A stretch of 46,245 nucleotides of DNA from Pseudomonadota bacterium. GTDB lineage: Bacteria > Desulfobacterota > Syntrophorhabdia > Syntrophorhabdales > Syntrophorhabdaceae. The notes under the pieces were generated by a model. The model was given only the letters and a program-made list of their open reading frames with translations. It did not search any database and was not told the DNA's origin. The stretch spans positions 1 through 46,245 of the forward strand of contig JAPLKA010000085.1 of NCBI GenBank assembly GCA_026388315.1, given 5' to 3'. Below are positions 9,366 through 45,637 of the stretch, piece after piece; position 1 is the first letter of the stretch, and every line of letters begins with the position of its first letter. The translations under genes and the position numbers were made by a program.

Positions 9366-9567
9366 TATATCATAATGTAGTATATAGATAATTAAATTAT
9401 ATACATTTTCTTCTGTTTCTGTATTATATAAAAGATCCTCAAAGGTAGAATAAATTGGGACTTTTCTATAAATGAACACAAATGATACTAAAGTGGTTTT
9501 CTACTGTAGTTATTATTGCGTGCAAAATTATTTTGGATGTAATTGAATTTACAATGAGTTACTCATA

Positions 9568-10692: not shown

Positions 10693-10877
10693 CACACTGG
10701 TCAGTTTTTTACCCCCGCCAGATTTGCTCGAAAACCCTAATTTAATTCACAAGCGGCGATTCTCTTTCACGGCTGCGCACGGTAAATTACAAATATTGGG
10801 TTAAATAATACTAATAATATATACGTAGTTTACAGCAGATTATTTGATATGGTTTTGATGCTTACATTTGTTGTAAA

Positions 10878-10889
10878 TTTGTATACAAA
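10878..10889. promoter_or_regulatory. GTATAC-centred palindrome, candidate GntR/FadR-type operator
   Basis: TTTGTATACAAA is a perfect 12-base palindrome 32 bases upstream of the histidine-kinase start. The same core (TTTTGTATACAAAA and TTGTATACAG) flanks the promoter of the catabolic operon at 30205-30274, whose second gene is a GntR/FCD regulator. FCD-type GntR proteins commonly bind short palindromes with GT...AC half-sites. A shared regulator is inferred. Confidence 0.5.
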
Positions 10890-10921
10890 ATCGTGAGTCA
10901 TCGTTAAAGGACCAATACAAA

Positions 10922-30204: not shown

Positions 30205-30274
30205 TTTTGTATACAAAAATACTTGACAATTATTTTAAGTGATACTATAGTTGATTCATTAAAATTGTATACAG
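30205..30274 (+). promoter_or_regulatory. Operon promoter flanked by two GTATAC palindromes (candidate GntR operators)
   Basis: TTGACA (30223-30228) and TATAGT (30246-30251) are 17 bases apart, a near-consensus sigma-70 promoter with start near 30258. TTTTGTATACAAAA (30205-30218) is a perfect palindrome just upstream of the -35. A second copy, TTGTATACAG (30265-30274, with TGTATACA exact), lies just after the start point. Two sites around a promoter suggest repression with possible looping. The GntR/FCD protein encoded by the second gene of the operon is the obvious candidate. Confidence 0.7.
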
Positions 30275-30291
30275 TATCCAAAGGGGGAACC

Positions 30292-31491
30292 ATGGAAGAT
30301 CACGAGATTTTTAAAAACATTACCGTCCTTTCGCTTGAACAGGCAACGGTCTTGCCGTACCTTTCCTACAGACTTGCCATGGATGGGGCAAACATTATAC
30401 GAATGGAGCACCCTGTCTATGGAGACCCGAACAGAAGGGTAGGCGAAAACAGGCTTAACGAAGACAGGATGTACACGTATTTCCTTACCATTAACTGCAA
30501 CAAAAAGGCCATTACCCTGGATCTGGGTACGCCGGAAGGCAAGGAAATCTTCAGGGATTTGCTTATAAAACTGGATGTTGACATATTTGCCACAAACCAG
30601 CTCCCGAGGAATTATCCAAAGCTCGGCATTGATTACGAAGCAGTAAAATCCATCAAGCCCGATATTATATGGGTGGGCCTTACTGGTTTCGGCCCCGAAA
30701 GTAATGAGGCTGCCTATGACCCCATTCTCCAGGCAAGAAGCGGACTCATGGAAGTCACTGGCGACAAAAACGGTCCTCCGTATGTCCTCGGTGTACCGCT
30801 CCCCGATATGGGCGCCAGCGAACATGCGTACGGGTTGATCATGAAAGCCCTCTATAAGCGGGCAATGACTAAGGAAGGTTCGAGGATCGATGTTTCCATG
30901 TTCCAGAGTACCGTCTCTTGGCTTACCGTCCCCATTACCCAGACAAAATCCTTCAATAAAAAGATCACGAGGAGAGGGAATACCCATGAGTTTTTCGCGC
31001 CCGTAAGCGTCTACAAGACCAAAGACGGGTATGCATATGTTGCCGTCGGGAACGACATCCAGTGGGAAAGGATGCTGAAAATCAGCGGCTTTGAGGGCCT
31101 GGCGAAGCCGGAATATGCACGGAACGAGGGAAGGATAAAGAATGTTGATAATCTGAACAAGGCCGTTGAAGAGGCTACGGTGAAGTATACCATCGATGAA
31201 CTTACTGCCCTGTTCACTAACGCCACCATTCCTATCTCCAAGGTCAACACTATAGAAGAAGTTCTCGAAGACCCCTATATAAAGGATGAAATACTCTCTT
31301 CTACCGATGCAAAGACAGGGACAACGATTTATCTTGCACCGTTACCCCATACAACAAGTTATGTAAAATCTGTGAACAGGAAACTGCCCTTCCCGCCAAG
31401 ATTTGGCGAACAAAACGAAGAGATTTATATGAATACCCTTGGCTACACAAGAGAAAGACTGGACGAATGGAAAACAAAGGGAATAATTTGA
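30292..31491 (+). CDS. Class III (CaiB/BaiF) CoA-transferase, IaaL-like by context
   Basis: Transfers CoA between carboxylic acids without ATP. The 399-residue protein has the family N-terminus (VLSLEQATVLPYLSYRLAMDGAN), the YDPILQARSGLMEVTG motif and a likely catalytic Asp172 in GVPLPDMGASEHA. ATG 30292 with AAGGGGG upstream is preferred over the longer open frame, which would start upstream of the promoter. It is the first gene of the catabolic operon. In the anaerobic indoleacetate pathway of Aromatoleum, a class III enzyme (IaaL, letter from memory) handles phenylsuccinyl-type CoA esters. That role fits the mutase downstream but is inferred. Confidence 0.85.
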   Translation: MEDHEIFKNITVLSLEQATVLPYLSYRLAMDGANIIRMEHPVYGDPNRRVGENRLNEDRMYTYFLTINCNKKAITLDLGTPEGKEIFRDLLIKLDVDIFATNQLPRNYPKLGIDYEAVKSIKPDIIWVGLTGFGPESNEAAYDPILQARSGLMEVTGDKNGPPYVLGVPLPDMGASEHAYGLIMKALYKRAMTKEGSRIDVSMFQSTVSWLTVPITQTKSFNKKITRRGNTHEFFAPVSVYKTKDGYAYVAVGNDIQWERMLKISGFEGLAKPEYARNEGRIKNVDNLNKAVEEATVKYTIDELTALFTNATIPISKVNTIEEVLEDPYIKDEILSSTDAKTGTTIYLAPLPHTTSYVKSVNRKLPFPPRFGEQNEEIYMNTLGYTRERLDEWKTKGII

Positions 31492-31500
31492 GGAGGTCAA

Positions 31501-32217
31501 ATGAATACCCCCGATGAGCAGCCCACTGTGAGGAAAGGGAAATTTTTGAGGGAACAGGTTTATAAAACATTAAAAAATACTATTTTAATCGGTGGTTTAC
31601 AGCCGAAGAAGAGGCTCATTGAAGAAAAACTTGCCGATGAGATGGGGACAAGCAGAACTCCCGTGAGGGAGGCCATACAGAAACTCGAAAAGGAAGGCCT
31701 CATACACAAACTCCCCAGAGGCGGTTATGCGGTAAGCATTGTCACCGATGAGGATATTGAAGAGGTATTCGGAATACGGAGTGTCCTTGAAGGGTATGCA
31801 GGGTATCTTGCCACATCGAGGGCAACAGAAGACGACATAAAGGCATTGGAAGAGATTGTTCAGAAAGAAGAAGAATGCCTCAAAAAGAATAACACGGAAG
31901 AGATTATACAATTAAATACCGAATTTCATGACATATTATACAAAGCAGCAAAAAGCGCTAAACTGTACACTATAATTAACGATCTGAGAGATTGCATTTA
32001 CCGGTACAGGATCATAATTTTCCGTTACAGCGGTATGGCAGAAATATCTATTAATGATCACAAGGACATGATCAACCTCATGAAGGAGAAAAATGCCATG
32101 CAGGTGGAGAAGCTTGTCCGGAAACACATCATAAGGGGAAAGAACCTGATAAAGAAAAAAATCAAAAGAGATGTCATAAAACATGGACTTGGTCAAAAAA
32201 CTTCTTCAGGGAGATGA
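31501..32217 (+). CDS. GntR family transcriptional regulator, FCD (FadR) subfamily
   Basis: A 238-residue regulator with an N-terminal winged helix (about 15-80; LKNTILIGGLQPKKRLIEEKLADEMGTSRTPVREA) and a C-terminal all-helical FCD domain (about 95-215) with acidic and His residues (EFHDILY, DHKDMINLM) that normally hold a metal and bind an organic acid or acyl-CoA effector. It follows the CoA-transferase by 9 bases with a GGAGG Shine-Dalgarno. It is the likely repressor for the GTATAC palindromes at the operon promoter, and perhaps for the similar site before the kinase at 10922. Its coding end overlaps meaB by 35 bases. Confidence 0.9.
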   Translation: MNTPDEQPTVRKGKFLREQVYKTLKNTILIGGLQPKKRLIEEKLADEMGTSRTPVREAIQKLEKEGLIHKLPRGGYAVSIVTDEDIEEVFGIRSVLEGYAGYLATSRATEDDIKALEEIVQKEEECLKKNNTEEIIQLNTEFHDILYKAAKSAKLYTIINDLRDCIYRYRIIIFRYSGMAEISINDHKDMINLMKEKNAMQVEKLVRKHIIRGKNLIKKKIKRDVIKHGLGQKTSSGR

Positions 32218-33121
32218 GAAGAGTGCGGCACGCCTCATCTCTATGGTAGAGGAAGGACGGCCCGAAGGCTTCAAAGCCATTTCGCTTATATATCCCCATA
32301 CCGGTAAAGCACATGTCATTGGTGTTACCGGTGCACCCGGTGCAGGAAAAAGCACCCTGATTGGTAAGCTTGCTATGAGTTTTGTCAGCGAGGGCAAAAA
32401 GATCGGAATCATTGCTGTTGACCCGACAAGCTCAAAAGGTGGCGGGGCACTTCTCGGCGACCGCGTGCGAATGCGGGAAGCCGATAAAACAGGAGGGATC
32501 TTTATAAGATCAATGGCCCACAGGGGATATCCAGGCGGCATTGCAAAGGCAACAATCGGGGCAACGTACGTCCTCGAGGGTCTCGGCAAGGATATTATTA
32601 TGGTGGAAAGTGTCGGTGCCGGCCAGACCGAGATCCAGATATCTGCATTGTGTGATACCGTTATTACTGTTGTAACGTCTGATTACGGGGATGATATTCA
32701 GCTTATGAAGGCAGGGCTTATTGAAATAGGAGATATTGTTGCTGTAAATAAGGCGGACAAGTCAGGGGCGGAAGACACTGTGAGGGACATTTCGATGCAT
32801 ATCGGGGATCGTAAACAGAATGGCTGGAAGATTCCCGTTGTCACAGTCCAGTCAATGAGCGGGGAAGGCGTGGAAGGGCTTAAAAATCACCTTGATGCAC
32901 ATTTTTCTTTTCTCAAGGAAGACGCCTCTGGTATTCAAAAGAAAAAAGCGCGCTTAAAAGCAATGATGCTGTCTCTTTTAAAAGAAGAAATGTGGAATAC
33001 ATTGATGGATAAGTGGAGCAATACCGGTGAGTTTCAAGGTATTGTAGGGCAACTCGAGGATGGAAAGGTGGACCCTTATGCAGCAGTGCACCAGGCATCC
33101 GAAATGATGTTTCGTACATAA
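32183..33121 (+). CDS. meaB: Methylmalonyl-CoA mutase-associated GTPase (MeaB/ArgK family)
   Basis: A G-protein chaperone that guards and reloads B12 in acyl-CoA mutases. The 312-residue protein has Walker A GAPGAGKST (50-58), switch-type DPTSSKGGGALLGDR, the ESVGAGQTE motif and base-recognition NKAD. This matches MeaB of methylmalonyl-CoA mutase operons. The ATG at 32183 lies within the GntR gene's end, giving a 35-base overlap and coupled translation. The mutase subunits are two genes downstream, which makes this mutase the likely client. Confidence 0.92.
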   Translation: MDLVKKLLQGDEKSAARLISMVEEGRPEGFKAISLIYPHTGKAHVIGVTGAPGAGKSTLIGKLAMSFVSEGKKIGIIAVDPTSSKGGGALLGDRVRMREADKTGGIFIRSMAHRGYPGGIAKATIGATYVLEGLGKDIIMVESVGAGQTEIQISALCDTVITVVTSDYGDDIQLMKAGLIEIGDIVAVNKADKSGAEDTVRDISMHIGDRKQNGWKIPVVTVQSMSGEGVEGLKNHLDAHFSFLKEDASGIQKKKARLKAMMLSLLKEEMWNTLMDKWSNTGEFQGIVGQLEDGKVDPYAAVHQASEMMFRT

Positions 33122-33134
33122 CAGATGGTTTGGG

Positions 33135-34277
33135 ATGGATTTTAACTTTACACAGGAACAGATATTTTTCAGGGAACAGGTCGCGAAGGCCCTCAAAGAA
33201 CTTGTTGAGCCACAGGCTTCAACGATAGACAAAGAAGACAGGTTCCCCCATGCATTGTTTAAAAAACTGGGTAGCTTAGGCTACTACGGTGTACGGTACC
33301 CCCAGGAAATCGGTGGCATGGGGGCAGACTGCACCACGTTTACCATTCTTGCTGAAGAGCTTGCCCGTGTCTCCGTAGCCTTTTCAGCCATTGTCACCAT
33401 GCAGTGCCTCATGGGTACGGATTTTATCCACCGCTTTGGCACGAAAGATCACATAGAACGCCTCCTTATTCCTGCCATTAAAGGAGAAAAGATAGCCACC
33501 ATTGCCTTTACCGAGCCGGATTATGGTTCTGATCTAGGGGCAATAAAGACAAAAGCTGTAAAAGAAGGAAATGAGTACGTGATCAGAGGCAGAAAGATGT
33601 GGATCACAAGTGCTGAAGTAGCTGATTTTGTGACTGTTGTTGCTACGGTGGACCCTTCAAAACGCCTCAAGGGCCTCGCCTTTTTCCTTGTTGAGAAGGG
33701 CACACCCGGTTTTTCGGTTGGTCAGAGGATTGATAAGATGTCAGCCAGGGGTTCGGTTACCGGAGAATTGATCTTTGATGAGTGCCGTATTCCTGAGACA
33801 AACCTTCTCGGAGAAGAGGGAAAGGGCGCCCAGTACCTTGAAGGACTTTTAAGCGAAATCAGGGTCATGATTGCGGGGTTGGGGCTCGGGCTTGCCCGGA
33901 GCGCTTATGCCGCCGGGATTAAATATGCTCAGGAACGGGAAGCCTTCGGGAAACCTGTTTCTCAATTCCAGCTCATTCAGGAAAAGATTGCAGAGATGGA
34001 GATGCGCATTAAAAGTACATGGCTTCTTACCTATCATGCAGCATGGCTTAAGGATCATGGCATGCCTGCAAAGAAAGAGGCTGCCATGGCAAAATTATAT
34101 TCCACCGAAACAGCAACGTATGTGGTGGACCAGGTGACAAGGATACACGGGGCATATGGTATTGCAGAGGAATACCATGTTGAGAGGCTATACAGGGATG
34201 CACGTTTTCTCCTCTACGGAGGGGGGACGTCGGAAATATTGAAGACGATTATTGCGAAAGAGTGCCTTAAAACATAA
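33135..34277 (+). CDS. Acyl-CoA dehydrogenase with Gly at the usual catalytic Glu position, IaaF-like by context
   Basis: An FAD-dependent acyl-CoA dehydrogenase-fold protein of 380 residues. It has AFTEPDYGSDLGAIKT and the FAD-contacting KMWITSAEVADFVTV, and a C-terminal RDARFLLYGGGTSEI. In most members this last motif reads YEGTSEI, with Glu as the base; here the position is Gly363. A Glu (241) lies in the helix where isovaleryl- and long-chain enzymes carry their alternative base, offset by one residue. In the proposed pathway it would oxidise, perhaps with decarboxylation, the benzylmalonyl-type CoA made by the mutase. Electron-transfer flavoprotein genes are not in the window. It starts 13 bases after meaB. 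Confidence 0.85.
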   Translation: MDFNFTQEQIFFREQVAKALKELVEPQASTIDKEDRFPHALFKKLGSLGYYGVRYPQEIGGMGADCTTFTILAEELARVSVAFSAIVTMQCLMGTDFIHRFGTKDHIERLLIPAIKGEKIATIAFTEPDYGSDLGAIKTKAVKEGNEYVIRGRKMWITSAEVADFVTVVATVDPSKRLKGLAFFLVEKGTPGFSVGQRIDKMSARGSVTGELIFDECRIPETNLLGEEGKGAQYLEGLLSEIRVMIAGLGLGLARSAYAAGIKYAQEREAFGKPVSQFQLIQEKIAEMEMRIKSTWLLTYHAAWLKDHGMPAKKEAAMAKLYSTETATYVVDQVTRIHGAYGIAEEYHVERLYRDARFLLYGGGTSEILKTIIAKECLKT

Positions 34278-34327
34278 ACCGCTTTGTGCATGGTGCTTTG
34301 TGCATAATGTAAACTTGGAGGAATTTT

Positions 34328-34726
34328 ATGGGAGAGCAGAAAAGGATAAAGGTTTTAATTGCGAAACCGGGACTTGATGGTCACGACAGAGGGGCCAAAG
34401 TAGTCGCCCAGGCCCTTAAGGAGGCAGGAATGGAGGTGATTTATTCCGGTCTCCACAAGACGATAGACCAGATCATTCATATTGCCATCCAGGAGGATGT
34501 GGATGTCATCGGGCTCTCTATCATGTCAGGCGCCCACATCCCGATTACGCAAAAGCTCTTTAAAAGACTTGGTGAAGAGGGGGTTACGGACAAGCTTGTT
34601 TTTGTCGGCGGTGTCATACCCGGGAAGGATATCCCCAGGCTCAAGGGGATAGGAGTTACCGGCGTTTTCCCCGGCGGCGCCCCTCTTGCCGAAACGATAG
34701 AGTTCTTAAAAAATACTGTAAAATAA
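34328..34726 (+). CDS. Acyl-CoA mutase small subunit, cobalamin-binding
   Basis: A 132-residue B12-binding domain, the separate small subunit of a methylmalonyl-CoA-mutase-like enzyme. The DxHxxG motif is GLDGHDRG, with His19 the expected lower axial ligand to cobalt. SIMSGAH and FVGGVIP are the other cofactor-tail contacts. GGAGG lies 8 bases before the ATG. The large subunit follows 23 bases later, so the enzyme is of the split type also seen in archaea, hydroxyisobutyryl-CoA mutase and indoleacetate degraders. Confidence 0.92.
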   Translation: MGEQKRIKVLIAKPGLDGHDRGAKVVAQALKEAGMEVIYSGLHKTIDQIIHIAIQEDVDVIGLSIMSGAHIPITQKLFKRLGEEGVTDKLVFVGGVIPGKDIPRLKGIGVTGVFPGGAPLAETIEFLKNTVK

Positions 34727-34749
34727 GGATATTGCATTAGGAGGAAAAT

Positions 34750-36378
34750 ATGGCTGTTCCACGATACATTAAAGACAAAAAGGATCAGATTCTGGATGTC
34801 ATTCTGGAATCCGGAATCCATGTAAAGCCTTCCTATACACCTGAAGACCTGGAACATATCGGCTTCAATTACGAAAAAGACGTTGCAGACCCGGGAAAAT
34901 ATCCATTTACAAGGGGAATACACCCCATGGGCTACAGGTCGAGGGCATGGACAACACGTCAGTATACCGGTTTCGGAAGCCCGGCGGAGACGAATGAGCG
35001 CTTCCAGCTCATGATTGCCCATGGCCAGACAGGGTTGAATGTTGCCTTTGATCTGCCGACACAGATGGGATATGACTCGGACGATCCCATGGCTGAAGGA
35101 GAAGTGGGACGGGTGGGCATGGCAGTAGATACACTCCGTGACTTTGAAATTGCCTTTAAGAACATACAATTAGACAAGATCGGTGCAGGACTTACTATCA
35201 ATGCCGTGGCATCCATTATGCTTGCCATGTATCAGGCGGTAGCGGAAAAATTCGGGTACGATGCAAAAGTCATATCTGCAACACCTCAGAATGACATATT
35301 GAAAGAGATGATAGGTAGAGGGGCATGGATTTTCCCTGTGGAGCCGGCGGTGAAACTCATCGGTGACACGATCGAGTATTCTATGACCACCATGCCAAAG
35401 ACAAACCCTGTAAGTGTATGCGGGTACCACATCAGAGAATCCGGTGCAACACCGGCCCAGGAAATCGCTTATGCTATCCTCATTGCCAACGCATACATCG
35501 ATAATGTCCTTGCAAGGGGATACGATGTAGATGAATTTGTCGGGAGGTTTTCCTTTAATTTCAATGTGTTCGGCAATATGTGGGAACAGATTGCCAAATT
35601 CAGGGCGGCCCGGAAGCTCTGGGCACGGAATCTGAAAGAGAAATACAATGTAAAAAAGGCACAAAACCTTTTTCTGCGTGGGCTTTTCGGGGGTGGCGGA
35701 TATGGACTCACCAAGGCACAGCCGGAAAACAACATCATGAGAGGGGCATATTATGCGCTCGTAGCTGCCCTGTCAGGTGCACAAACAACGGCATTGTGCA
35801 GTTTTGACGAAGCCTTTACGATTCCAACACCTCATTCAGCGCTTCTCTCGCTCCGCACGCTCCAGCTATTAATGGATGAGATGGGCCTGAGGGATACCGT
35901 TGATCCACTTGCCGGAAGCTACTTCATCGAAACGCTCACAAAAGAGATGGAGCAGAAAATCGAGGAAGAGATGGAAAAGATTGTAAAGTACGGTGGCATC
36001 ACAAAGGCTGTTTCTGATGGGTATATCCAGAGACTTGTTGCACATCAGGCCTTTGAAGTGGAAAAAGGACTTGAATCAGGGGAGCTTCTGAAGGTAGGTG
36101 TCAATATCTATAAAGAGGGTGCCCCCATGGATGTAGAACTCCACGAGTATAACTATGAGACTGCCGAAAAACAGATTGAAAGCCTGCATCAGGTCAAGCG
36201 GGCACGTTCGGAGAGTGATGTGGCACGTACCCTGAAAGAGCTTGAAACTGCAACACTGGAGGGGAAGAATGTGATGCCCCATCTCGTTGAGTGCTGTAAG
36301 GCATATGCAACAGTTGGTGAAATGACGGGCATCTTCAGGCAGGTTTTTGGTGAATTCCAGGAACCAGGGCTGTTTTAG
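34750..36378 (+). CDS. Acyl-CoA mutase large (catalytic) subunit, methylmalonyl-CoA-mutase family
   Basis: The TIM-barrel subunit of a B12-dependent acyl-CoA mutase (542 residues; no B12 domain fused). Aligning by eye with Propionibacterium methylmalonyl-CoA mutase gives one constant offset of 17: Tyr89 becomes Tyr72 (TTRQYTG), Arg207 becomes Arg190 (NDILKEMIGRG), His244 becomes His227 (CGYHIRESG). Tyr and Arg at these sites bind a free carboxylate; isobutyryl- and hydroxyisobutyryl-CoA mutases have other residues. A succinyl-type substrate is therefore predicted, including (2-aminophenyl)succinyl-CoA in the indoleacetate pathway. TPQ replaces the common TIQ beside the active site, and LCSFDEA replaces HTNS-type sequence, so it may not be the ordinary enzyme of propionate metabolism. 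Confidence 0.9.
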   Translation: MAVPRYIKDKKDQILDVILESGIHVKPSYTPEDLEHIGFNYEKDVADPGKYPFTRGIHPMGYRSRAWTTRQYTGFGSPAETNERFQLMIAHGQTGLNVAFDLPTQMGYDSDDPMAEGEVGRVGMAVDTLRDFEIAFKNIQLDKIGAGLTINAVASIMLAMYQAVAEKFGYDAKVISATPQNDILKEMIGRGAWIFPVEPAVKLIGDTIEYSMTTMPKTNPVSVCGYHIRESGATPAQEIAYAILIANAYIDNVLARGYDVDEFVGRFSFNFNVFGNMWEQIAKFRAARKLWARNLKEKYNVKKAQNLFLRGLFGGGGYGLTKAQPENNIMRGAYYALVAALSGAQTTALCSFDEAFTIPTPHSALLSLRTLQLLMDEMGLRDTVDPLAGSYFIETLTKEMEQKIEEEMEKIVKYGGITKAVSDGYIQRLVAHQAFEVEKGLESGELLKVGVNIYKEGAPMDVELHEYNYETAEKQIESLHQVKRARSESDVARTLKELETATLEGKNVMPHLVECCKAYATVGEMTGIFRQVFGEFQEPGLF

Positions 36379-36466
36379 CAACAGGGTTCAAGGGGTCGAG
36401 TGATTTAAAAATGCTTAAGCCCTTGGATCTTGGAACTCTTGAGCCCGAATTGAGTTAGGAGGATAC
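36379..36466. repeat. Repeat-like spacer between mutase and hyuA
   Basis: The 88-base gap holds GGGTTCAAGGGGTCGAG and later CCCTTGGATCTTGGAACTC, which partly pair. It is the same kind of low-complexity spacer seen between other genes of the operon. A GGAGG Shine-Dalgarno sequence ends it. Confidence 0.4.
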
Positions 36467-38569
36467 ATGAGAGACAAATATTACCGGCTGGGCTGCGACA
36501 TCGGCGGAACATTCACCGACTTTGTCCTGCTCAACGATCAAACAGGAGAGATACAAACCGGCAAGTGCCTGACTACACCACAGGACCCCTCCGATGCAGT
36601 TGAAGAAGGGATAAGGGCGCTGGAGGTGACATCACCGGACTTTGTCGGGAAGCTGGACGAATTGATACACGGAACAACCCTTGTCATCAATTCCATCATC
36701 GAGAGAAAGGGAGCCAGAACAGGGCTCATCACGACGAAAGGTTTCAGGGATGTACTGGAGATAGGCCGCGAGATACGCTATGCACCTTACGACATATTCG
36801 CAGAATTTCCCCAACCCCTGATCCCCAGGAGATACCGCATCGAGGTGGATGAAAGGGTCCGCAGCGATGGAACCGTCTTGAAGGCGCTGGATGTGGAAGA
36901 TGCAAAAAAGGCGGTTCGCACCCTGCTTGGCATGGGTGTGGAGTCGATCGCCGTTTGTCTCCTCAATTCCTTTGAGAATCCGTCCCATGAGCTGATGCTC
37001 CAGGAGATCATCGAAAAAGAGGCTCCGGGCATCTCCACATCGATTTCGTACCATGTTCTGCCGCAGATCAAGGAATATGAAAGAACAAGCACCACGGTTA
37101 CCAACGCCTATGTCAAACCCCTTACGGGACGTTATCTGTCCAAACTGGCCGACAGGCTTGATTCTATCGGCTTCAAGGGCAAACTCTTTATCATGCTGAG
37201 CAGCGGCGGTGTTACCTCTGTGGATACAGCGGCGCAGTTTCCGGTAAGGATTATCGAGTCCGGACCTACGGCGGCAGTCATTGCAGGCCAGTACTACGGC
37301 AAACACTTCAATATCCCCGAGATGTTCTGTTTCGATATGGGCGGCACAACGGCCAAGTCTTGTCTGATCCAGAAAGGCGTTGCCAGTGTGGTGCCGACAT
37401 TCGAAGTGGGACGCGTTCAGAGGTTCATGAAGGGAAGCGGGCTCACGATTCAGGTGCCCGTCGTTGACCTGATGGAGATAGGCGCAGGCGGCGGCAGTAT
37501 TGCTAAAATAAGCAAGCTTGGCACCCTTCGGGTTGGCCCGGAAAGCTCCAGTGCAGATCCAGGCCCTATCTGTTACGGAAGGGGAGGTAAAGATCCGTGC
37601 GTGACCGATGCGGACCTCCTGCTGGGTTACCTCGACGAGAAATATTTTCTTGGAGGGACCATGAGCCTCGACAAGGAGGGTGCACGCCGCGGTGTGGAAG
37701 AGAAGATTGCAAAACCGCTCGGTGTTTCCTTTATTCAGGCCCTCTGGGGTATCCATGATCTCATCAACGAAACAATGGCAGCGGCAGCAAAGACGCATAT
37801 CGCCGAAAAGGGCGGGAACCCCAAGATCGTAACGGTTGCCGCTTTTGGAGGGGCAGGTCCGGTCCACGCTTACGGATTGGCCAAAAAACTGGGTGCGCCC
37901 CGGATGCTGATACCGCCAAATGCTGGTGTAGGATCGGCAATGGGTTTCTTCACCGCCCCGCGGGCATTCGATCTCTTGAGGAGCCATAAGGTTCCCCTGA
38001 GTGATGCTGCATTTTCCGATATTGAGGAGATATTCAAAGGACTTGAGGTCGATGCCGGAAAGATACTGAAGAAGGAAGCGGCCGATGACGCCATTACATA
38101 TGAAAGATCCCTGGATATGCGTTTTGTGGGACAGGGCGCAGAAACGAATGTCCAGGCGCCGTCAGGGGATTTCACAAAACTCAAGAAGGCCGATATCAGA
38201 CGCATCTTCGACGATGCCTATGAGAAGCTCTACGGCAGGACCTACCCCGAATCGGAAGTAGAGTTCATCAACTTCAAGGTCAGGGCAAGCCTTCCGGAAC
38301 GGCTCCTCCAGCTTCCAAAACAGAAAAAGAAAAAGGGACAGTCCCTCGATGAGGCCATCAAAGGACAACGTCCTGCATACTCGCCTATCGCAAAAGATTT
38401 TATACCCTATACGGTTTATGACAGATACAAACTCTTTCCGAAGGCCAGGTTTCAGGGGCCAGCCATTATCGAAGAAAAAGAATCAACCCTCATTGTGGGG
38501 GAAGATGCCCGTGTATCGGTAGATGAGTTTGGATTTCTGTGGATTGACCTTAAGGAGGTAGGAAAATGA
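36467..38569 (+). CDS. Hydantoinase A/oxoprolinase-type subunit (HyuA), ATP-dependent
   Basis: The ATP-binding subunit of the HyuA/HyuB class: N-methylhydantoinase, 5-oxoprolinase, caprolactamase and acetone/acetophenone carboxylases. The 700-residue protein has the N-terminal phosphate motif CDIGGTFTDFVL, a second FDMGGTTAKSCL, EIGAGGGSIAKI and FGGAGPVHAYGLAK. With HyuB but no small gamma subunit nearby, ring-opening of a lactam is more likely than carboxylation. In the indoleacetate pathway such an enzyme opens 2-oxoindole-3-acetate to (2-aminophenyl)succinate. The GGAGG site is 8 bases before the ATG. hyuA and hyuB look richer in G+C than the genes before them. Confidence 0.87.
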   Translation: MRDKYYRLGCDIGGTFTDFVLLNDQTGEIQTGKCLTTPQDPSDAVEEGIRALEVTSPDFVGKLDELIHGTTLVINSIIERKGARTGLITTKGFRDVLEIGREIRYAPYDIFAEFPQPLIPRRYRIEVDERVRSDGTVLKALDVEDAKKAVRTLLGMGVESIAVCLLNSFENPSHELMLQEIIEKEAPGISTSISYHVLPQIKEYERTSTTVTNAYVKPLTGRYLSKLADRLDSIGFKGKLFIMLSSGGVTSVDTAAQFPVRIIESGPTAAVIAGQYYGKHFNIPEMFCFDMGGTTAKSCLIQKGVASVVPTFEVGRVQRFMKGSGLTIQVPVVDLMEIGAGGGSIAKISKLGTLRVGPESSSADPGPICYGRGGKDPCVTDADLLLGYLDEKYFLGGTMSLDKEGARRGVEEKIAKPLGVSFIQALWGIHDLINETMAAAAKTHIAEKGGNPKIVTVAAFGGAGPVHAYGLAKKLGAPRMLIPPNAGVGSAMGFFTAPRAFDLLRSHKVPLSDAAFSDIEEIFKGLEVDAGKILKKEAADDAITYERSLDMRFVGQGAETNVQAPSGDFTKLKKADIRRIFDDAYEKLYGRTYPESEVEFINFKVRASLPERLLQLPKQKKKKGQSLDEAIKGQRPAYSPIAKDFIPYTVYDRYKLFPKARFQGPAIIEEKESTLIVGEDARVSVDEFGFLWIDLKEVGK

Positions 38570-40275
38570 AACGTGCGTTTGATCCGATCACGTTAGAGAT
38601 ATTATGGAGAAGGCTGATTTCCATTGTTGACGAGGCGGACGGCAGTGTTGCCCGCACCGCCTTTTCGAGCCTGCTCAGGGATGCCCATGACTATACCTGC
38701 ATGTTTACGGACAGATTGGGCCGGGAACTGGCTCAGGGGAGCTATGCAACCCCCGGACAGTCCGGCGCCATGGCCCTGGGTATAAAGAATCTGGTTAACA
38801 AGTACCCGTTGGAACATTACCAGCCAGGCGATGTATTTATCACGAACGATCCCTGGGCGCTCGCGGGTCATTTGAATGACGTATGTGTTATGAGCCCTAT
38901 ATTTTACAAGGAGCAACTGGTTGCCTTTACGGCAAGCGTATTTCACCATTCCGATATCGGTGGGCGTGTTGCCTCCGACAACCACGATGTTTTTGAGGAA
39001 GGTCTTTTTATTCCCTTCGTAAAGCTATACGACAAGGGAGTCCTCAACGAGTCGGTGCTCGATATGATCAGGTGGAACGTGCGAACCCGCGAGGAGGTGA
39101 TCGGCGATATACGGTCCCAGATCGCAGCGAACCACGTGTGCGGTGAAAAGATACGGCAGATGCTGAAAGAGAGCAACCTTGAAAACCTGGACGATCTGGC
39201 GGATCAGATTATCGGTTTGACCGAAAAAAGCATGAGGGAAGAGATCGAAAAGATCCCCGATGGCCTCTATCATGCTAAAGGCGTAATCGAGCAGATGAAA
39301 GGAAAAGACGATATCATCATCCAGGCGAAGGTCGAGATAAAGGGAAGCGATATCATTGTAAATCTCGACGGTTCTTCCGGTCAGGTAGACTGGGGCGGAA
39401 ACGTTGTTTATAATTTTACCTATGCCTATGTATTTATGGCAATAAAAAGCATGTTTGCCCCGGACATCCCGAACAACGATGGCTGCGCCAGGCCTATACA
39501 GCTTTTTGCCCCTGAAGGAACCGTTGTGAACTGCAAGTTCCCTGCAGCCGTGGCTGCACGGATGGGGGTGGGCCATTTTCTTACTGAGGTCATTTACCGG
39601 GCATTGTCCAATGTTCTACCCAACAGGGTGATCGCAGCTTCCGGCGGTACGCCGGCTGCTATGAACGTATTTTACGGAAGAAGGAAAGACGGGAAGCCGT
39701 GGCACTCCGTGATTATCCGGGGAGGCGGCATGGGCGCAGGCGCGTCCAACGACGGGAACTATGTCTATATCTTCCCGGCCAACGGCGCCAATACGCCTGT
39801 TGAGATATTTGAAAGTGACACCCCGCTTATCGTAGAGAAGAGAGAACTCCTCTCCGATTCAGGCGGCTGCGGCAAGATGAAGGGCGGTCTCGGAAAAAGG
39901 GAAGTCTTCAGGATACCCGACGATCAGTATGCCCCCATGCCCCCGGTTAACCTGGGGATCCAGTCAGGAAGGTATATCTATCCGGCGGAAGGGCTCTTTG
40001 ACGGTAAAACTGGCACAAAGGCCCAGTTTCTGGTCAACGGCGTTCCGGGTAACTCCTATGGATTGACACAGATGAAGCCCGGTGACGTGGTCATCATCGA
40101 CGCCCCCGGCGGCGGAGGATACGGCAAACCTTTTGAGCGCGACCCGGAAATGGTGGTCAGCGACGTCATTGAAGGATATGTGAGCATTGAAAGTGCCATG
40201 AATGATTATGGTGTTGTTATTAGTCCGGTAACCGGAGAAATTGACTGGAAAGAAACAAAGAAGCTGAGAAAGTAG
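38566..40275 (+). CDS. Hydantoinase B/oxoprolinase-type subunit (HyuB)
   Basis: The 569-residue partner of HyuA, overlapping its stop by 4 bases (ATGA), which is strong evidence of a complex. Family motifs are DPITLEILWRRL at the start, LRDAHDYTCMFTD, DVFITNDPWALAGHLNDV (metal and substrate region), HHSDIGGR and a Gly-rich end GDVVIIDAPGGGGYG. Length is typical (520-600). The substrate cannot be read from sequence; the neighbouring molybdenum hydroxylase, which makes cyclic amides from N-heterocycles, supports a lactam such as 2-oxoindole-3-acetate. Confidence 0.87.
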   Translation: MKRAFDPITLEILWRRLISIVDEADGSVARTAFSSLLRDAHDYTCMFTDRLGRELAQGSYATPGQSGAMALGIKNLVNKYPLEHYQPGDVFITNDPWALAGHLNDVCVMSPIFYKEQLVAFTASVFHHSDIGGRVASDNHDVFEEGLFIPFVKLYDKGVLNESVLDMIRWNVRTREEVIGDIRSQIAANHVCGEKIRQMLKESNLENLDDLADQIIGLTEKSMREEIEKIPDGLYHAKGVIEQMKGKDDIIIQAKVEIKGSDIIVNLDGSSGQVDWGGNVVYNFTYAYVFMAIKSMFAPDIPNNDGCARPIQLFAPEGTVVNCKFPAAVAARMGVGHFLTEVIYRALSNVLPNRVIAASGGTPAAMNVFYGRRKDGKPWHSVIIRGGGMGAGASNDGNYVYIFPANGANTPVEIFESDTPLIVEKRELLSDSGGCGKMKGGLGKREVFRIPDDQYAPMPPVNLGIQSGRYIYPAEGLFDGKTGTKAQFLVNGVPGNSYGLTQMKPGDVVIIDAPGGGGYGKPFERDPEMVVSDVIEGYVSIESAMNDYGVVISPVTGEIDWKETKKLRK

Positions 40276-40385
40276 GAAGTTAAGAAAGAAATTAGCTATG
40301 CACAGAATTTTAGTAATTGAGTGAATAAGTAAATGAGTAATTAAAATCACTTAATCACTTAATCACTTATTTACTTGATTACTGT
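40276..40385. repeat. Semi-tandem and palindromic spacer between hyuB and the ligase
   Basis: AGGAAGTTAAGAA appears at the start, and its reverse complement occurs at 15690-15720. Next come GAATAAGTAAATGAGTAAT, three tandem copies of the 8-base unit AATCACTT (about 40350-40375) and TTACTTGATTACT, which together form a long imperfect palindrome. No gene is seen. Confidence 0.5.
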
Positions 40386-40419
40386 AACCGCTGTTTTGAT
40401 AAAGGAGGAAGGAAACGAT

Positions 40420-41724
40420 ATGGAAAGACCATTTGATGCAAAAGTAAAAACAGAGAAGGAGCTCAAAGCGCTTCAGCTTGAGGGTCTGAAATGGACGGTG
40501 GACCATGTTTATAACGGTTCTGGCCATTACCGGAAAAAATTTGACGAAGCTGGTGTAAAGCCGGCGGACATTAAAACGCTGGAAGACTTACGGAAATTGC
40601 CCTTTACTTCCAGCAAAGACCTTCAGGAAGGCTATCCCTTTCCGCTCCTGAGCGTACCCATGGAGAAGGTTGTCCGCATCCATGCATCCAGCGGTACCAC
40701 CGGTAAAAGGAAGGTGCTTTGTTATACCGCAAAAGATGTAGATGACTGGGCGGAGATGTTCGCGCGGTGTTATTCCTATGCAGATTGTACCGTGGAAGAC
40801 AGGATACAGATCGCAGTGGGGTATGGTGTATGGACAGCGGGATGGGGTTTCCAGAACGGCTGCGAACGTTTCGGTGCCATGTCAATCCCCATAGGCCCGG
40901 GCAACACGGATATGCAGTGCCAGTTCCTCGAAGATTTCGGGACAACGGCCATGTGCTGTACTGCGTCCATGGGGCTTCTTATGGCGGAGCTTATCGCAGA
41001 ACGGGGGCTTAAAGGTAAGATTGCTCTGAAAAAGATGATCTTCGGGTCGGAACGCGCCAGTGATGCCATGAGGATGCGAATTTCTGAACTTTCAGGGGTC
41101 AGCTACGACCAACTCTTTGATATTCCCGGTATGACTGAGTTGTACGGACCGGGAACCGGTCTGGACTGCAGGTACCATAAAGGCATTCACCACTGGGCCG
41201 ATTACTACATACTGGAGATTTTGAACCCTGACACACTGGAGCCTGTTCCACCGGGAGAAGTGGGGGAAATGGTGGTAACGACTCTGAAAAAGGAAGCAGC
41301 GCCGCTCATCCGTTACCGGACACGGGACCTGACAAGGATGATACCAGAGCAGTGCCCCTGCGGAAGTATTATGCCCATGCACGACAGGATCCTCGGCAGA
41401 TCCGATGACATGTTTATCTTCAGGGCTGTCAATATTTACCCGAGCCATATCGATCAGATACTGTCCAACATCAAAGGCGTGGGCAGCGAGTATCAGATTG
41501 TCCTTTACCGGAAAGAGGCAGGTGGAAAAGACCACATGACGATCAGGGTCGAGCGGGCCCATGGTGTACAGCACTCTCATGACTCGGATAAGCACACCAG
41601 GAAGGCCACCGAGCACGAAATAAAAAAGCAGGTGTTAGTGAGCTGTGATGTGGAAATTGAGGACTACGGCTCATTACCGCGGTCTGACAGGAAAACAAAA
41701 AGGGTATTTGATAATAGAGACTGA
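40420..41724 (+). CDS. PaaK-like acyl-CoA ligase, AMP-forming (IaaB-like by context)
   Basis: An adenylate-forming ligase of 434 residues, the size of phenylacetate-CoA ligases. It has the P-loop ASSGTTGKRK, IPGMTELYGPG (A5-like), YRTRDLTRM and the C-terminal lid LGRSDDMFIFRAVNIYPS. ATG 40420 has AAAGGAGG upstream; the frame extends 15 codons further but only into the repeat spacer. In Aromatoleum, a ligase of this type (IaaB, from memory) makes indoleacetyl-CoA. Here it lies between HyuAB and the molybdenum hydroxylase. It could instead act on another aryl acid. Confidence 0.9.
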   Translation: MERPFDAKVKTEKELKALQLEGLKWTVDHVYNGSGHYRKKFDEAGVKPADIKTLEDLRKLPFTSSKDLQEGYPFPLLSVPMEKVVRIHASSGTTGKRKVLCYTAKDVDDWAEMFARCYSYADCTVEDRIQIAVGYGVWTAGWGFQNGCERFGAMSIPIGPGNTDMQCQFLEDFGTTAMCCTASMGLLMAELIAERGLKGKIALKKMIFGSERASDAMRMRISELSGVSYDQLFDIPGMTELYGPGTGLDCRYHKGIHHWADYYILEILNPDTLEPVPPGEVGEMVVTTLKKEAAPLIRYRTRDLTRMIPEQCPCGSIMPMHDRILGRSDDMFIFRAVNIYPSHIDQILSNIKGVGSEYQIVLYRKEAGGKDHMTIRVERAHGVQHSHDSDKHTRKATEHEIKKQVLVSCDVEIEDYGSLPRSDRKTKRVFDNRD

Positions 41725-41820
41725 TAAAGACAGTGAATAGTAATAGTAGACAGTGAATAGTTGAAAGGGCAGTCGAGTCTTTTGCTATTCACTATGGACT
41801 ATTCACTAACGGCTGCTCTT
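41725..41820. repeat. Inverted GTGAATAG repeats between ligase and Mo-hydroxylase genes
   Basis: AGTGAATAG occurs at 41732 and 41752, and its exact reverse complement CTATTCACT at 41785 and 41799. The gap can therefore fold as one long hairpin in two registers. The same word is found at 3270. It might reduce read-through or protect RNA ends between the two parts of the operon. Confidence 0.55.
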
Positions 41821-41835
41821 AAAAAGGAGGTTACT

Positions 41836-42810
41836 GTGAGAAGCTTTGAATACCACAAACCGGAGACGGTTCAGGAAGCAGTTGAATTGATGGGCGCCCT
41901 TGATAATGCGAAGTATATTGCCGGCGGGACAGATGTAATGGTGCTTTTCAGGCAGAAGAAGATTGCGCCGGCAAACCTTATTTCTCTGAGGAGTATCAAT
42001 GACCTTGTTTACATTGATGAGCAGGACGGCTTAAAGATCGGAAGTGCCGCGACACTTTCCGCGATTGCGAAGGATGAATTCATCAAACGCTCTTATTCGG
42101 CACTCAATGATGCCGCAACCCGTCTCGGTTCACTTCAGATCCGGAACGTTGCAACGATGGGCGGAAATATATGCAATGCAGCGCCTTCTGCTGATACGGC
42201 ATGTCCTCTTCTTGTTCTTGATGCAAAGGTCATAATTGTTGGGCAAAAAGGGGAGAGGGAGGTGGATATCGATGATTTCTTCCTCGGACCTAATAAAGTA
42301 GCCCTTGAAAAGGGTGAGATTGTAAAAGGTTTTCATATGCCGCAATTTGGAAACAATACGGGCTCTGCCTATATAAAACATACAAGAAGGCAGGCAATGG
42401 ATCTCCCCATGATAGGGGTAGGTGCACGGATAACGATCAAGATCGGCAAAAGCGAGGCGCGCTGCCATGATGCCCTTTGCACTATTGATAACATTTCCAA
42501 CGTGCTTGCACGTCTCCAGGACGAAGAGCTGGAGATTGAGGATGCACGGATAGCCATGGGGGTTGTTGCTCCGAGACCTATACGGGCGAAACAGGCTGAA
42601 GCAGCCCTGAAGGGAAAAGTCGTATCGGAAAAACTCTTCCGAGAAATCGGGGAGATTGCAATGTCAGAAGCCCAGCCAAGGGACAGCATCAGAGGCGAGG
42701 CATGGTACAGGAAGGAAATGGTGAAAGTTCTTGTAAGAAGGGCTCTTATGCGGTCAATCGACAGAATCATCAGGCCGGACGATACAATTTATCCGGAGAG
42801 ATTATGGTAA
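41836..42810 (+). CDS. Molybdenum hydroxylase FAD-binding subunit (xanthine dehydrogenase family)
   Basis: The medium, FAD-carrying subunit of a three-part Mo hydroxylase, 324 residues. FAD contacts are visible in YIAGGTDVMVLF and TMGGNICNAAPSADT, with the CO-dehydrogenase flavoprotein C-terminal domain after about residue 180. I chose the GTG at 41836 because AAAGGAGG precedes it and the family starts here (SFEYHKPETVQEAVEL). The extra 4Fe-4S loop of 4-hydroxybenzoyl-CoA reductase is not seen. It passes electrons from the 2Fe-2S subunit to an acceptor. Confidence 0.9.
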   Translation: MRSFEYHKPETVQEAVELMGALDNAKYIAGGTDVMVLFRQKKIAPANLISLRSINDLVYIDEQDGLKIGSAATLSAIAKDEFIKRSYSALNDAATRLGSLQIRNVATMGGNICNAAPSADTACPLLVLDAKVIIVGQKGEREVDIDDFFLGPNKVALEKGEIVKGFHMPQFGNNTGSAYIKHTRRQAMDLPMIGVGARITIKIGKSEARCHDALCTIDNISNVLARLQDEELEIEDARIAMGVVAPRPIRAKQAEAALKGKVVSEKLFREIGEIAMSEAQPRDSIRGEAWYRKEMVKVLVRRALMRSIDRIIRPDDTIYPERLW

Positions 42811-42884
42811 GGAAACAGTGTTGAGTTGTGAGTGTTGAGTTAAAACATTGAACATAAAACCTTGAACGATATTAGGGGGTAACG
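42811..42884. repeat. Short repeat spacer between FAD and 2Fe-2S subunit genes
   Basis: GTGTTGAGTT occurs twice (about 42819 and 42831), followed by ACATTGAACATAAAACCTTGAACG, a degenerate CTTGAAC-type repeat shown here only in outline. It ends in AGGGGG upstream of the next ATG. No gene is seen. Confidence 0.4.
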
Positions 42885-43352
42885 ATGAAAAAAGAAATAA
42901 CGTTCACTTTAAATAACGAAGTAATGGAGGTAGAAGTTGATCCCGGATGGACACTCCTTTATCTGCTGAGGGAAGTCCTTGAGATGACCGGTACGAAAGA
43001 AGGTTGCGGTTACGGGGAATGCGGCGCCTGTACGGTAATCATAGACGGCCAGGCGGTGAATTCATGCCTGTATCCTGTCATGGAGGCCGAAGGGAGGAAG
43101 GTTACCACCATAGAAGGCGTCATGTCAAAAAGCGGTGAGCTTGACCCCGTCCAGCATGCCTTAGTACAGAACGGCGCTGTTCAATGTGGATTCTGCACAC
43201 CGGGCATGGTTATGTCTGCAAAGGCGCTCCTGGATGAAAAGGAAAAACCGACGGAAGACGATATCAAGGAGAGCATCGAAGGCAATCTCTGCAGGTGCAC
43301 CGGGTATGTCAATATTATCGATGCTATAAAATCTGTTGCAGGCGGGAGGTGA
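42885..43352 (+). CDS. Molybdenum hydroxylase 2Fe-2S subunit
   Basis: The small iron-sulfur subunit of 155 residues. The plant-type cluster ligands are Cys41, 46, 49 and 61 (CGYGECGACT ... C). The second cluster uses Cys102, 105, 137 and 139 (CGFCTPGM ... CRC). All eight ligands are present, so both clusters should form. It carries electrons from the Mo site to the FAD subunit. The stop lies just before the large-subunit ATG at 43355. Confidence 0.95.
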   Translation: MKKEITFTLNNEVMEVEVDPGWTLLYLLREVLEMTGTKEGCGYGECGACTVIIDGQAVNSCLYPVMEAEGRKVTTIEGVMSKSGELDPVQHALVQNGAVQCGFCTPGMVMSAKALLDEKEKPTEDDIKESIEGNLCRCTGYVNIIDAIKSVAGGR

Positions 43353-43354
43353 AT

Positions 43355-45637
43355 ATGAGCGATCTCACAAAAGTAGGACAGAGGATTCCAAAGAAGGATG
43401 CGCCGTTAAAGGTTACCGGCGCTGCGGTATATATACAGGATATGAAAGTACCGGGCATGCTTTATGGCAAGATCCTGTACAGTAAGTACGCCCACGCAAA
43501 AATACTGAAAATAGATACCAGCAAGGCAGAAAAGCTTCCCGGTGTAAGGGCTGTGCTGACCGGTGCAGATGTACCGAACAATTTTAAATTCGGCTTCCTT
43601 AAAGATAACCCGCCGCTGAAGACAGGCAAGGTGTTATCCGCGAGGGATGAAGTCGCAGCCGTTGCTGCCATAAGTACTGAAATAGCAGAAGAGGCGCTTG
43701 ATCTCATCGAGGTAGAGTATGAAGAACTGCCGGGAATTTTCGACCCTCTCGATGCCATGAAAGAAGGGGCGCCGCTGATTCATGAAGAATTCAAGTCGAA
43801 CGTCCTGAAGCTGCCCTGGAAGCTGGTCGCCGGCGATGTGGAAGAAGCGAAAAAGGCATCGGCATATATCGCTGAGGACAGCTTCAGCACTCAATGGGTA
43901 ACGCACTGCTGCCTCGGCACGAGCGGCTGTATCGCTGCTTTTGACATGAACAACAATCTCACCATGTACAGCAACACACAGATACCATCTCTTGCACAGA
44001 ATGACTATTTAGAGGCGCTCAAGACCTTTGGCCTGAAAAACAAACGGGTAAGGATTATTCAGTGCGTCATAGGAGGAGGTTTCGGCAGCAAGCTCGACAC
44101 CTATGCCTATGAATACATCGCCGTCCTGCTTGCCTTGAAGACGAGAAAACCAGTGAAGATCGTTTTCTCAAGAGAAGAAGAATTTTTTGCCACTTCCCCG
44201 CGGCAGTGCACGATCACAAAAATCTCACAGGGATGCGACAAGGACGGACGGCTTACCTTCCGTGAAATGGAGATGGTCCTCGATAACGGTGCCTATACAT
44301 CCTGGGGGTCAACAACGCCTTCGGTTATGATGGTGCCCATCTCATCTCTCTACAAGGTACAGAATATTAAATATGTGGCGAAGTGCGTGTATACAAATAA
44401 CACGTACAGCCAGGCAATGAGGGGTTACGGGAACCCTCAGGCGACCTTCGCAATAGAATCATGTCTGGATCAGCTTGCCGAGAAGGCAGGTATTGACCCC
44501 CTTGAGATCCGTCGCATAAACGCGAACGAACCTGGCGAGATCACGCCGCAGAATTTCAGGATTACCTCCTGCGGGATGAAGGAATGTATCGATGAGGTAG
44601 CAAACAGGCTGGACTGGAAAGGTAAAAGAGGGAAACACAACAGCAGGGGTGTTGGTATGGCAAGCCTCATCCACGTTGGAGGCGCTGCCAGGGTATATAA
44701 GTCTGACGGCTGCGGCACCATCATAAAGGTGGATGACAACGGTAAAGTCGATGTCATTACCGGGTCTTCAGAAATCGGCCAGGGATCAGAGACGATTATT
44801 TCTCAGATTGTTGCAGAGGTGCTCGGTATTAACATCGATGATATTAACGTCATCAATAACGACACCGATGTATGCCCCTGGGATGTGGGGGCACACGCGA
44901 GTAGAACTACCTTCGTGGCGGGTAACTCTGCCCTTGGTGCGGCCAAAAAGATAAAGGCCCAGATAATGGAGGTGGCTGCGAAAAACCTTGGCGAAGACCC
45001 GCAATTACTGGATATCAGAGACGGGGTAGTTTTCTCCATAAAAGACAAAGAAAAGAATATACCACTGTCAAAGGTACTGCGGAAGGTCCATTATTCTCTG
45101 GGCGGCAGGATGCTCGTGGCAGAGAACTTCTATGACCCGCCAAACGAAAACTTCGATCAGAACTTTAAGGGCAACCTTTCCGTTTCTTACGCATACGGTG
45201 CCCACGGGGTCGAGGTTGAGGTAGACAAAGATACCGGCCAGGTAAAGATCCTGAATTATATCGCTGCCCACGACGTAGGAAAGGCCATCAACCCCATGCT
45301 ATTGGAAGGGCAGATTTATGGAGGCGGGCTTCAGGGTATCGGTTATGCCCTTGGAGAACGAATGATCTTCGAAAAAGGGGTTCTTAAGAACGGTAATTTT
45401 CTTGATTATAAGATGCCTACAGCAAAAGATGTACCGCCTGTCCAGGCTGTCATTGTTGAAACAGACGAACAGGCCGGACCTTTCGGTGCAAAAGGCATCG
45501 GGGAACCGGGGCTTGTACCGACTGCACCGGCCATTGCAAACGCCATTTATGACGCCGTCGGGGTACGCATCAAAGACCTGCCCATTACGCCGGAAAAGGT
45601 TCTAAGGGCATTGCAGGAAAAAGGGAAAAGCGCCTGA
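43355..45637 (+). CDS. Molybdenum hydroxylase large subunit (xanthine dehydrogenase family, Mo-cofactor binding)
   Basis: The 760-residue catalytic subunit. It has the N-terminal KVTGAAVYIQDM, Mo-cofactor contacts VIGGGFGSKLD, QAMRGYGNPQ and GSSEIGQGSE, and the catalytic Glu717 in GIGEPGLVPTAPA. I chose the ATG at 43355 after GGGAGGT; the frame is open upstream into the 2Fe-2S gene. Such enzymes hydroxylate a carbon next to ring nitrogen using water. Indoleacetate hydroxylation at C2 to the 2-oxo form is the role proposed from context; nicotinate, quinoline or xanthine-type substrates are alternatives. Confidence 0.92.
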   Translation: MSDLTKVGQRIPKKDAPLKVTGAAVYIQDMKVPGMLYGKILYSKYAHAKILKIDTSKAEKLPGVRAVLTGADVPNNFKFGFLKDNPPLKTGKVLSARDEVAAVAAISTEIAEEALDLIEVEYEELPGIFDPLDAMKEGAPLIHEEFKSNVLKLPWKLVAGDVEEAKKASAYIAEDSFSTQWVTHCCLGTSGCIAAFDMNNNLTMYSNTQIPSLAQNDYLEALKTFGLKNKRVRIIQCVIGGGFGSKLDTYAYEYIAVLLALKTRKPVKIVFSREEEFFATSPRQCTITKISQGCDKDGRLTFREMEMVLDNGAYTSWGSTTPSVMMVPISSLYKVQNIKYVAKCVYTNNTYSQAMRGYGNPQATFAIESCLDQLAEKAGIDPLEIRRINANEPGEITPQNFRITSCGMKECIDEVANRLDWKGKRGKHNSRGVGMASLIHVGGAARVYKSDGCGTIIKVDDNGKVDVITGSSEIGQGSETIISQIVAEVLGINIDDINVINNDTDVCPWDVGAHASRTTFVAGNSALGAAKKIKAQIMEVAAKNLGEDPQLLDIRDGVVFSIKDKEKNIPLSKVLRKVHYSLGGRMLVAENFYDPPNENFDQNFKGNLSVSYAYGAHGVEVEVDKDTGQVKILNYIAAHDVGKAINPMLLEGQIYGGGLQGIGYALGERMIFEKGVLKNGNFLDYKMPTAKDVPPVQAVIVETDEQAGPFGAKGIGEPGLVPTAPAIANAIYDAVGVRIKDLPITPEKVLRALQEKGKSA

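Follow-up and report, generated by a model that had tools for sequence, protein, structure and literature searches.

A GGG-type acyl-CoA dehydrogenase in an iaa-type operon is probably an accessory IaaF paralogue

Introduction

The window, by which we mean the whole stretch of DNA analyzed (46,245 nucleotides), encodes an acyl-CoA dehydrogenase of 380 amino acids, ACAD1 (33135..34277, + strand), in which the usual catalytic Glu of the active-site loop appears to be missing. This raises the question of which reaction such an enzyme catalyzes and whether another residue serves as its general base. The original prediction proposed a substrate with its own carboxylate, such as a benzylmalonyl-CoA, that is decarboxylated during oxidation and needs a different base, for which Glu241 was considered.

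The lack of the Glu was already explained in print, because all enzymes of the IaaF subclass possess GGG instead of YEG and the mechanism proposed for IaaF is base-free, the loss of the 2-carboxylate taking the place of proton abstraction (PMC8360864; this and the other papers cited are used from the parts of their text available to us). IaaF of A. aromaticum converts benzylmalonyl-CoA to cinnamoyl-CoA and CO2 (PMC8360864), and a benzylmalonyl-CoA dehydrogenase without the Glu is mentioned again in PMC11659651. PMC8360864 was the only primary study of IaaF that turned up when we searched for the residue or for a link to FixABCX, the pathway papers of 2012 and 2016 being outside the scope of the search. 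No mention of Glu241 was found in the available part of PMC8360864.

The active-site loop and fold of ACAD1

The reading frame of ACAD1 is open, and the N-terminal, middle and C-terminal Pfam domains of acyl-CoA dehydrogenases were all detected above their cut-offs. The active-site loop reads YGGGTSEI, with YGGGTSE at residues 361-367. When ACAD1 was aligned pairwise with solved acyl-CoA dehydrogenases using HMMER, D-A-R-F-L-L-Y-G-G-G-T-S-E matched D-A-K-I-T-E-I-Y-E-G-T-S-E without a gap; Tyr-Glu-Gly of the solved enzymes corresponded to Gly362-Gly363-Gly364, and Tyr361 was new, the residue elsewhere being Ile. Thus nothing is inserted in the loop, and Gly363 occupies the position of the base. 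The catalytic Glu is indeed missing from ACAD1, as originally predicted, and the residue numbers given at that time, including Gly363 and Glu241, were correct.

The GGG motif was kept in 90 of the 137 acyl-CoA dehydrogenases that we gathered. Further, ACAD1 is under purifying selection (dN/dS of ~0.1 in comparison with L140; dN 0.018 and dS 0.19 in comparison with the copy of G286). The motif is therefore not a sequencing accident. Gly363 by itself does not identify such an enzyme: we rejected the GGG motif alone as a diagnosis, as PDB entry 3oib likewise reads GGG, but there it is accompanied by a Glu at position 242.

The predicted model of ACAD1 was confident (mean pLDDT 94.7), with helix G at residues 231-267. 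In the PDB, it matched human SCAD best, with 379 residues aligned at an rmsd of 1.3 and a Z of 55.8. Glutaryl-CoA dehydrogenase, which is also a decarboxylating acyl-CoA dehydrogenase, has the same fold (3mpi, Z 52.9; 1siq, Z 49.8). However, it keeps the Glu of YEG, which is Gly363 in ACAD1, and loses the gamma- rather than the alpha-carboxylate (PMC8360864); the score of ACAD1 against its model NF045552 was 270 bits, with a cut-off of 470. ACAD1 also fell short of 3-sulfinopropanoyl-CoA desulfinase (NF042439, 238 bits, cut-off 600). Its best NCBIfam match, acryloyl-CoA reductase AcrC (NF042972), scored 367 bits, far below the cut-off of 640.

The operon around ACAD1

The genes of the operon span 30265 to 45637 and share the + strand. 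ACAD1 is preceded by a family III CoA-transferase (30265..31491; Pfam PF02515), which is IaaL-like, a candidate phenylsuccinyl-CoA transferase and the first gene of the operon in relatives, by a GntR-family regulator (31501..32217) and by a MeaB-type GTPase, a mutase chaperone (32183..33121; NCBIfam TIGR00750 above cut-off). It is followed by the small, B12-binding subunit (34328..34726; TIGR00640 above cut-off, PF02310) and the large subunit (34750..36378; TIGR00641 above cut-off, PF01642) of an IaaGH-type mutase, the latter being the gene that co-occurs with the GGG motif (see below). Next are the IaaC/E-like hydantoinase/oxoprolinase A (36467..38569; PF01968, PF05378) and hydantoinase B (38566..40275; PF02538), which we take to correspond to IaaC/E. 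A phenylacetate-CoA-ligase-like gene (40375..41724; PF14535) is IaaB-like and a candidate indoleacetate-CoA ligase, its score against TIGR02155 being 402 bits, below the cut-off of 646. Further downstream are genes for xanthine-dehydrogenase-type FAD (41761..42810), [2Fe-2S] (42885..43352; PF01799) and Mo catalytic subunits (43295..45637, start codon uncertain; PF20256, PF02738, PF01315).

The genes described for the iaa pathway encode the CoA ligase IaaB, the phenylsuccinyl-CoA transferase IaaL, the mutase IaaGH and the dehydrogenase IaaF (PMC8360864), and the gene set of the window matches this pathway. ACAD1 resembles IaaF of A. aromaticum in the replacement of YEG by GGG in the active-site loop, in sharing its operon with a mutase, a CoA-transferase and a ligase, all assigned here at the family level, and in the alpha-carboxyacyl-CoA expected as substrate. 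The gene order of the A. aromaticum operon differs from that of the iaa-type operons of Burkholderiales examined here.

Elsewhere in the window, at 7392-13396, three large ORFs, all on one strand, look like sensors or signalling proteins in which sensory domains recur.

Co-occurrence of the GGG motif with the mutase

We searched 395 genomes of the window's phylum with a degenerate DNA pattern for RFLL[YF]GGGT. The pattern matched 51 genomes; read backwards, it matched none of the same 395. The iaa-type mutase, called as a large subunit close to that of the window (E at most 1e-185), was present in 77. Motif and mutase occurred together in 49 genomes, the motif alone in two (G023 and G375), the mutase alone in 28 and neither in 316 (Fisher p 7e-40, uncorrected for kinship). 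As far as searches show, within the literature covered, this co-occurrence has not been reported before. In 19 of the 28 mutase-only genomes, a GGG enzyme was present whose flanking letters fell outside the pattern, and an enzyme of the GGG clade was found in 68 of the 77 mutase-bearing genomes. At the thresholds used, it was not found in nine, of which three (G142, G159 and G223) yielded only rows outside the clade and six (G078, G113, G238, G239, G259 and G355) yielded no match at the cut-off; five of these nine genomes are less than 90% complete and four are 90-97% complete.

The same pattern matched none of 399 Burkholderiales genomes, because their copies read RFTLIGGGT. The mutase was detected in five of the 399 (E at most 1e-190), and all five possessed an RFTLIGGGT enzyme. 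Its gene is flanked by hydantoinase B and the mutase, except in L171, where it lies beside the mutase at the end of the contig.

In a tree of 76 representatives, 52 GGG rows formed one branch (support 100/99) that holds the copies of the window, Burkholderiales, the same phylum and Chloroflexi; the IaaF sequences of A. aromaticum and Ferroglobus were not among the rows. The tree omits loci without a full-length protein, rows at least 83% identical to those chosen, and the distant rows of L050 and L053-L062. Two VGGG rows, one from a Massilia plasmid (L148) and the other from G142 (L200), were sister to the GGG branch (100/97). Neither was counted in the clade, as both lack Arg336.

The VGGG dehydrogenase of the Massilia putida plasmid NZ_CP019037.1 (L148:11971-13116) is followed by genes for ETF subunits. 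GAG variants (YGAG with Asp241) were observed beside Mo-hydroxylase genes in three loci titled Chloroflexi or Anaerolineae (L026:11193-12335, L034 and L035), and those of L026 and L034 adjoin a GGG copy.

ACAD1 might be an ordinary beta-oxidation dehydrogenase that lost its base by chance, and its family and its fold, closest to that of human SCAD, are indeed ordinary. However, the operon, the presence of GGG throughout the clade, the tie to the mutase and the purifying selection all argue against this explanation, which we find hardly credible. In contrast, the iaa-type operon and the match of the clade to published IaaF, a link that runs through motif, operon and description, together lend good support to the substrate class and the decarboxylation. 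The proposal of a benzylmalonyl-CoA-like substrate that is decarboxylated was thus strengthened, given the complete iaa-type operon and the same reaction in the characterized IaaF (PMC8360864). By analogy, ACAD1, with the motif, operon, clade and mutase co-occurrence observed here, would catalyze the same reaction as A. aromaticum IaaF.

Glu241 and the alternative base

Other members of the family that have no Glu in the loop (3oib, 2pg0, row L212 and the YGG rows) possess a Glu at position 242. Position 242 directly precedes the conserved Arg, and we take it to be equivalent to the helix-G Glu of IVD and LCAD. In ACAD1, the corresponding sequence is LSEIR, in which Glu241 is followed by Ile242 and Arg243; Glu241 is therefore one residue off the alternative-base position, as had been noted originally, and the Glu directly before the conserved Arg that marks isovaleryl- and long-chain-type enzymes is replaced by Ile. 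The human enzymes use a helix-G Glu as the base (Glu254 in IVD and Glu291 in LCAD; PMC11153573). Thus, isovaleryl-CoA and long-chain acyl-CoA dehydrogenases resemble ACAD1 in the absence of the loop Glu but differ in the residue at 242.

Clade membership was defined by the glycines or alanines of the loop together with Arg336, and these positions, including Arg336 in 122/122, are fixed by construction among the 122 distinct clade rows, one of which (L185) is a gap-bridged chimera. Position 241 was Glu in 112 rows and Asp in seven, with single rows carrying Gln, Ile or Val; it was acidic in 119 of the 122 rows compared with 3 of the 51 outside the clade. An earlier set, compiled without the Arg336 rule, gave 95/98 inside and 0/45 outside. 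Position 242 was Ile (70 rows) or Val (52 rows) in the entire clade. Further, Arg54, Tyr55, Asp332 and Arg336 were clade-fixed in 30 of 30 representatives. With no Glu at 363 and Ile or Val at 242, the IaaF clade therefore possesses neither of the two known bases.

Glu241 may nevertheless be a relocated base if helix G is slightly turned and its carboxylate reaches C2, oxidation preceding decarboxylation as in glutaryl-CoA dehydrogenase. The acidic residue that distinguishes the clade from outside rows, and the Glu next door at 242 in other Glu-less relatives, are consistent with this explanation. However, the residue is naturally Gln in L029, which lies within a full iaa operon, and Ile or Val in L119 and L120, whose genomes both carry the mutase (72-73%), with none nearby. 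These natural replacements argue against an obligatory base at Glu241. In addition, residue 241 points ~100 degrees away from residue 242 on an ideal helix, and deprotonation at C2 is unneeded for an alpha-carboxylated substrate. We thus consider a relocated base quite improbable. The need for a different base, as originally proposed, is not supported by these distributions, nor by the published proposal, which dispenses with a base altogether. As judged from the aligned rows, Glu241 is a signature of the clade, and its role is probably in the pocket or electrostatic rather than that of a general base. It is a conserved and easily mutated residue.

A second GGG dehydrogenase, ACAD2

The genome of the window encodes a second GGG acyl-CoA dehydrogenase, ACAD2 (L094:11638-12786, contig G000:C82), which is 51% identical to ACAD1. 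It follows rpoD and is succeeded by EtfB, EtfA, a FixC-like FAD protein and a FixX-like ferredoxin (L094:11638-16249 for the group); rpoD was named by reading its ORF, and FixC- and FixX-like denote NCBIfam matches under the curated cut-offs.

Of the 17 genomes of the window's order that we examined, 16 carry the iaa-type mutase. ACAD2 was present in all 16, and both ACAD1 and ACAD2 were absent from the mutase-less G380. ACAD1 was present in only five of the 16 (G000, G286, G245, G324 and G201). In 14 of the 16, ACAD2 is preceded by rpoD, and in G201 and G324 it lies beside ACAD1 in the operon. EtfBA follows ACAD2 in 15 of the 16 genomes, the exception being G324. Twelve of the 14 loci with rpoD also have FixC and FixX; of the other two, the contig of G286 ends before them, and L139 has none within 8 kb. 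As far as searches show, this distribution of ACAD1 and ACAD2 in the order and the pairing of ACAD2 with ETF are likewise new with respect to the literature searched. ACAD2 has no mutase beside it in 14 of the 16 genomes, and a mutase-independent function was rejected, as all 16 have the mutase elsewhere.

Eight of the 11 genomes without ACAD1 have a closed operon, in which 30-71 bases separate MeaB or GntR from the small mutase subunit. G266 retains an ACAD1 remnant (L152:8489-8713, G266:C84) exactly between MeaB and the small mutase subunit, consisting of the first 76 residues (51% identity) with one stop. In G306 and G342, the mutase pair stood alone in the stretch examined. Full iaa operons thus exist without ACAD1, which is therefore unneeded there and may do something else. 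In this order, ACAD2 by itself evidently suffices for the pathway, and ACAD1 is therefore best regarded as an accessory paralogue of IaaF. The close relatives amount to a natural experiment: an iaa-type operon is kept whether ACAD1 is intact, decayed or absent, and ACAD2 is kept by all 16 genomes.

Conversely, ACAD2 was also present in 19 of 20 genomes with ACAD1 (15/15 plus G000, G286, G245 and G324; G201, apparently the genome of L021, was counted once). The exception was G023, where ACAD1 lies at the very end of a contig. Where the two genes are adjacent, ACAD2 starts 10-15 bases past the stop codon of ACAD1 (10 loci) or 40 bases past it (L143). An open frame of 804 residues in L023 was rejected as an ACAD1-ACAD2 fusion, as the two parts are joined by a run of N, which marks an assembly gap.

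G807, the genome of L014, possesses two ACAD2-like genes (88% and 76%) and an ACAD1 in which AGG replaces GGG.

This distribution also bears on the possibility that ACAD2 is the true IaaF of the order and that ACAD1 acts on another alpha-carboxyacyl-CoA or on the other enantiomer. The presence of ACAD2 in every mutase-bearing genome and the retention of both paralogues in 19 of 20 genomes favor this explanation. Further, benzylmalonyl-CoA racemizes spontaneously, and the IaaF that was assayed is enantiospecific (PMC8360864). However, ACAD1 adjoins the same mutase genes wherever its context is visible, and we regard this alternative as possible but rather unlikely.

Proposed reaction and electron route

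We conclude that ACAD1 probably takes part in the anaerobic degradation of indoleacetate as a decarboxylating dehydrogenase of the IaaF type, accessory to ACAD2. The mutase would make (2-aminobenzyl)malonyl-CoA, the 2-aminobenzyl substrate being that of the pathway by publication only. In ACAD1, FAD would then accept the hydride from C3 as the carboxylate at C2 is expelled as CO2, which would yield 2-aminocinnamoyl-CoA. There would be no proton to remove from C2, which would account for the replacement of Glu363 and Tyr362 by glycines; these would give the carboxylate room and block plain deprotonation. Glu241 may tune the pocket, for example by pushing electrostatically against the carboxylate or by contacting the 2-amino group. 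The likeliest exit for the electrons would be the EtfBA-FixCX encoded beside ACAD2.

The re-oxidant of IaaF was unknown in 2021; the ETF of A. aromaticum did not react with IaaF, and ETF genes are present in the iaa operons of some strict anaerobes (PMC8360864). The rejection of that ETF by IaaF counts against the electron route proposed here. In contrast to A. aromaticum, which reportedly has a single, non-bifurcating ETF, the genome of the window has two GGG paralogues, the second with EtfBA-FixCX genes. ACAD2 and EtfBA-FixCX are a concrete, expressible candidate for the re-oxidant and a testable lead. The new element is that ACAD1 looks like a second copy that can be dispensed with, next to the more universal ACAD2, which has its own electron-carrier genes.

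In a more far-reaching version, indoleacetate would be oxidized in this order by a two-dehydrogenase system, in which ACAD1 depends on ACAD2, the two forming a mixed tetramer or a pair that splits the enantiomers, EtfBA-FixCX delivers the electrons to quinone, and Glu241 helps to expel CO2 by electrostatic strain without taking a proton. If true, this would solve the re-oxidation of IaaF in strict anaerobes. We consider this version unlikely.

In L158 (G342:C41), the stretch that encodes the iaa-type mutase also contains a second mutase with MeaB and an acyl-CoA dehydrogenase (35% identical) that is accompanied by EtfB, EtfA, FixC and FixX.
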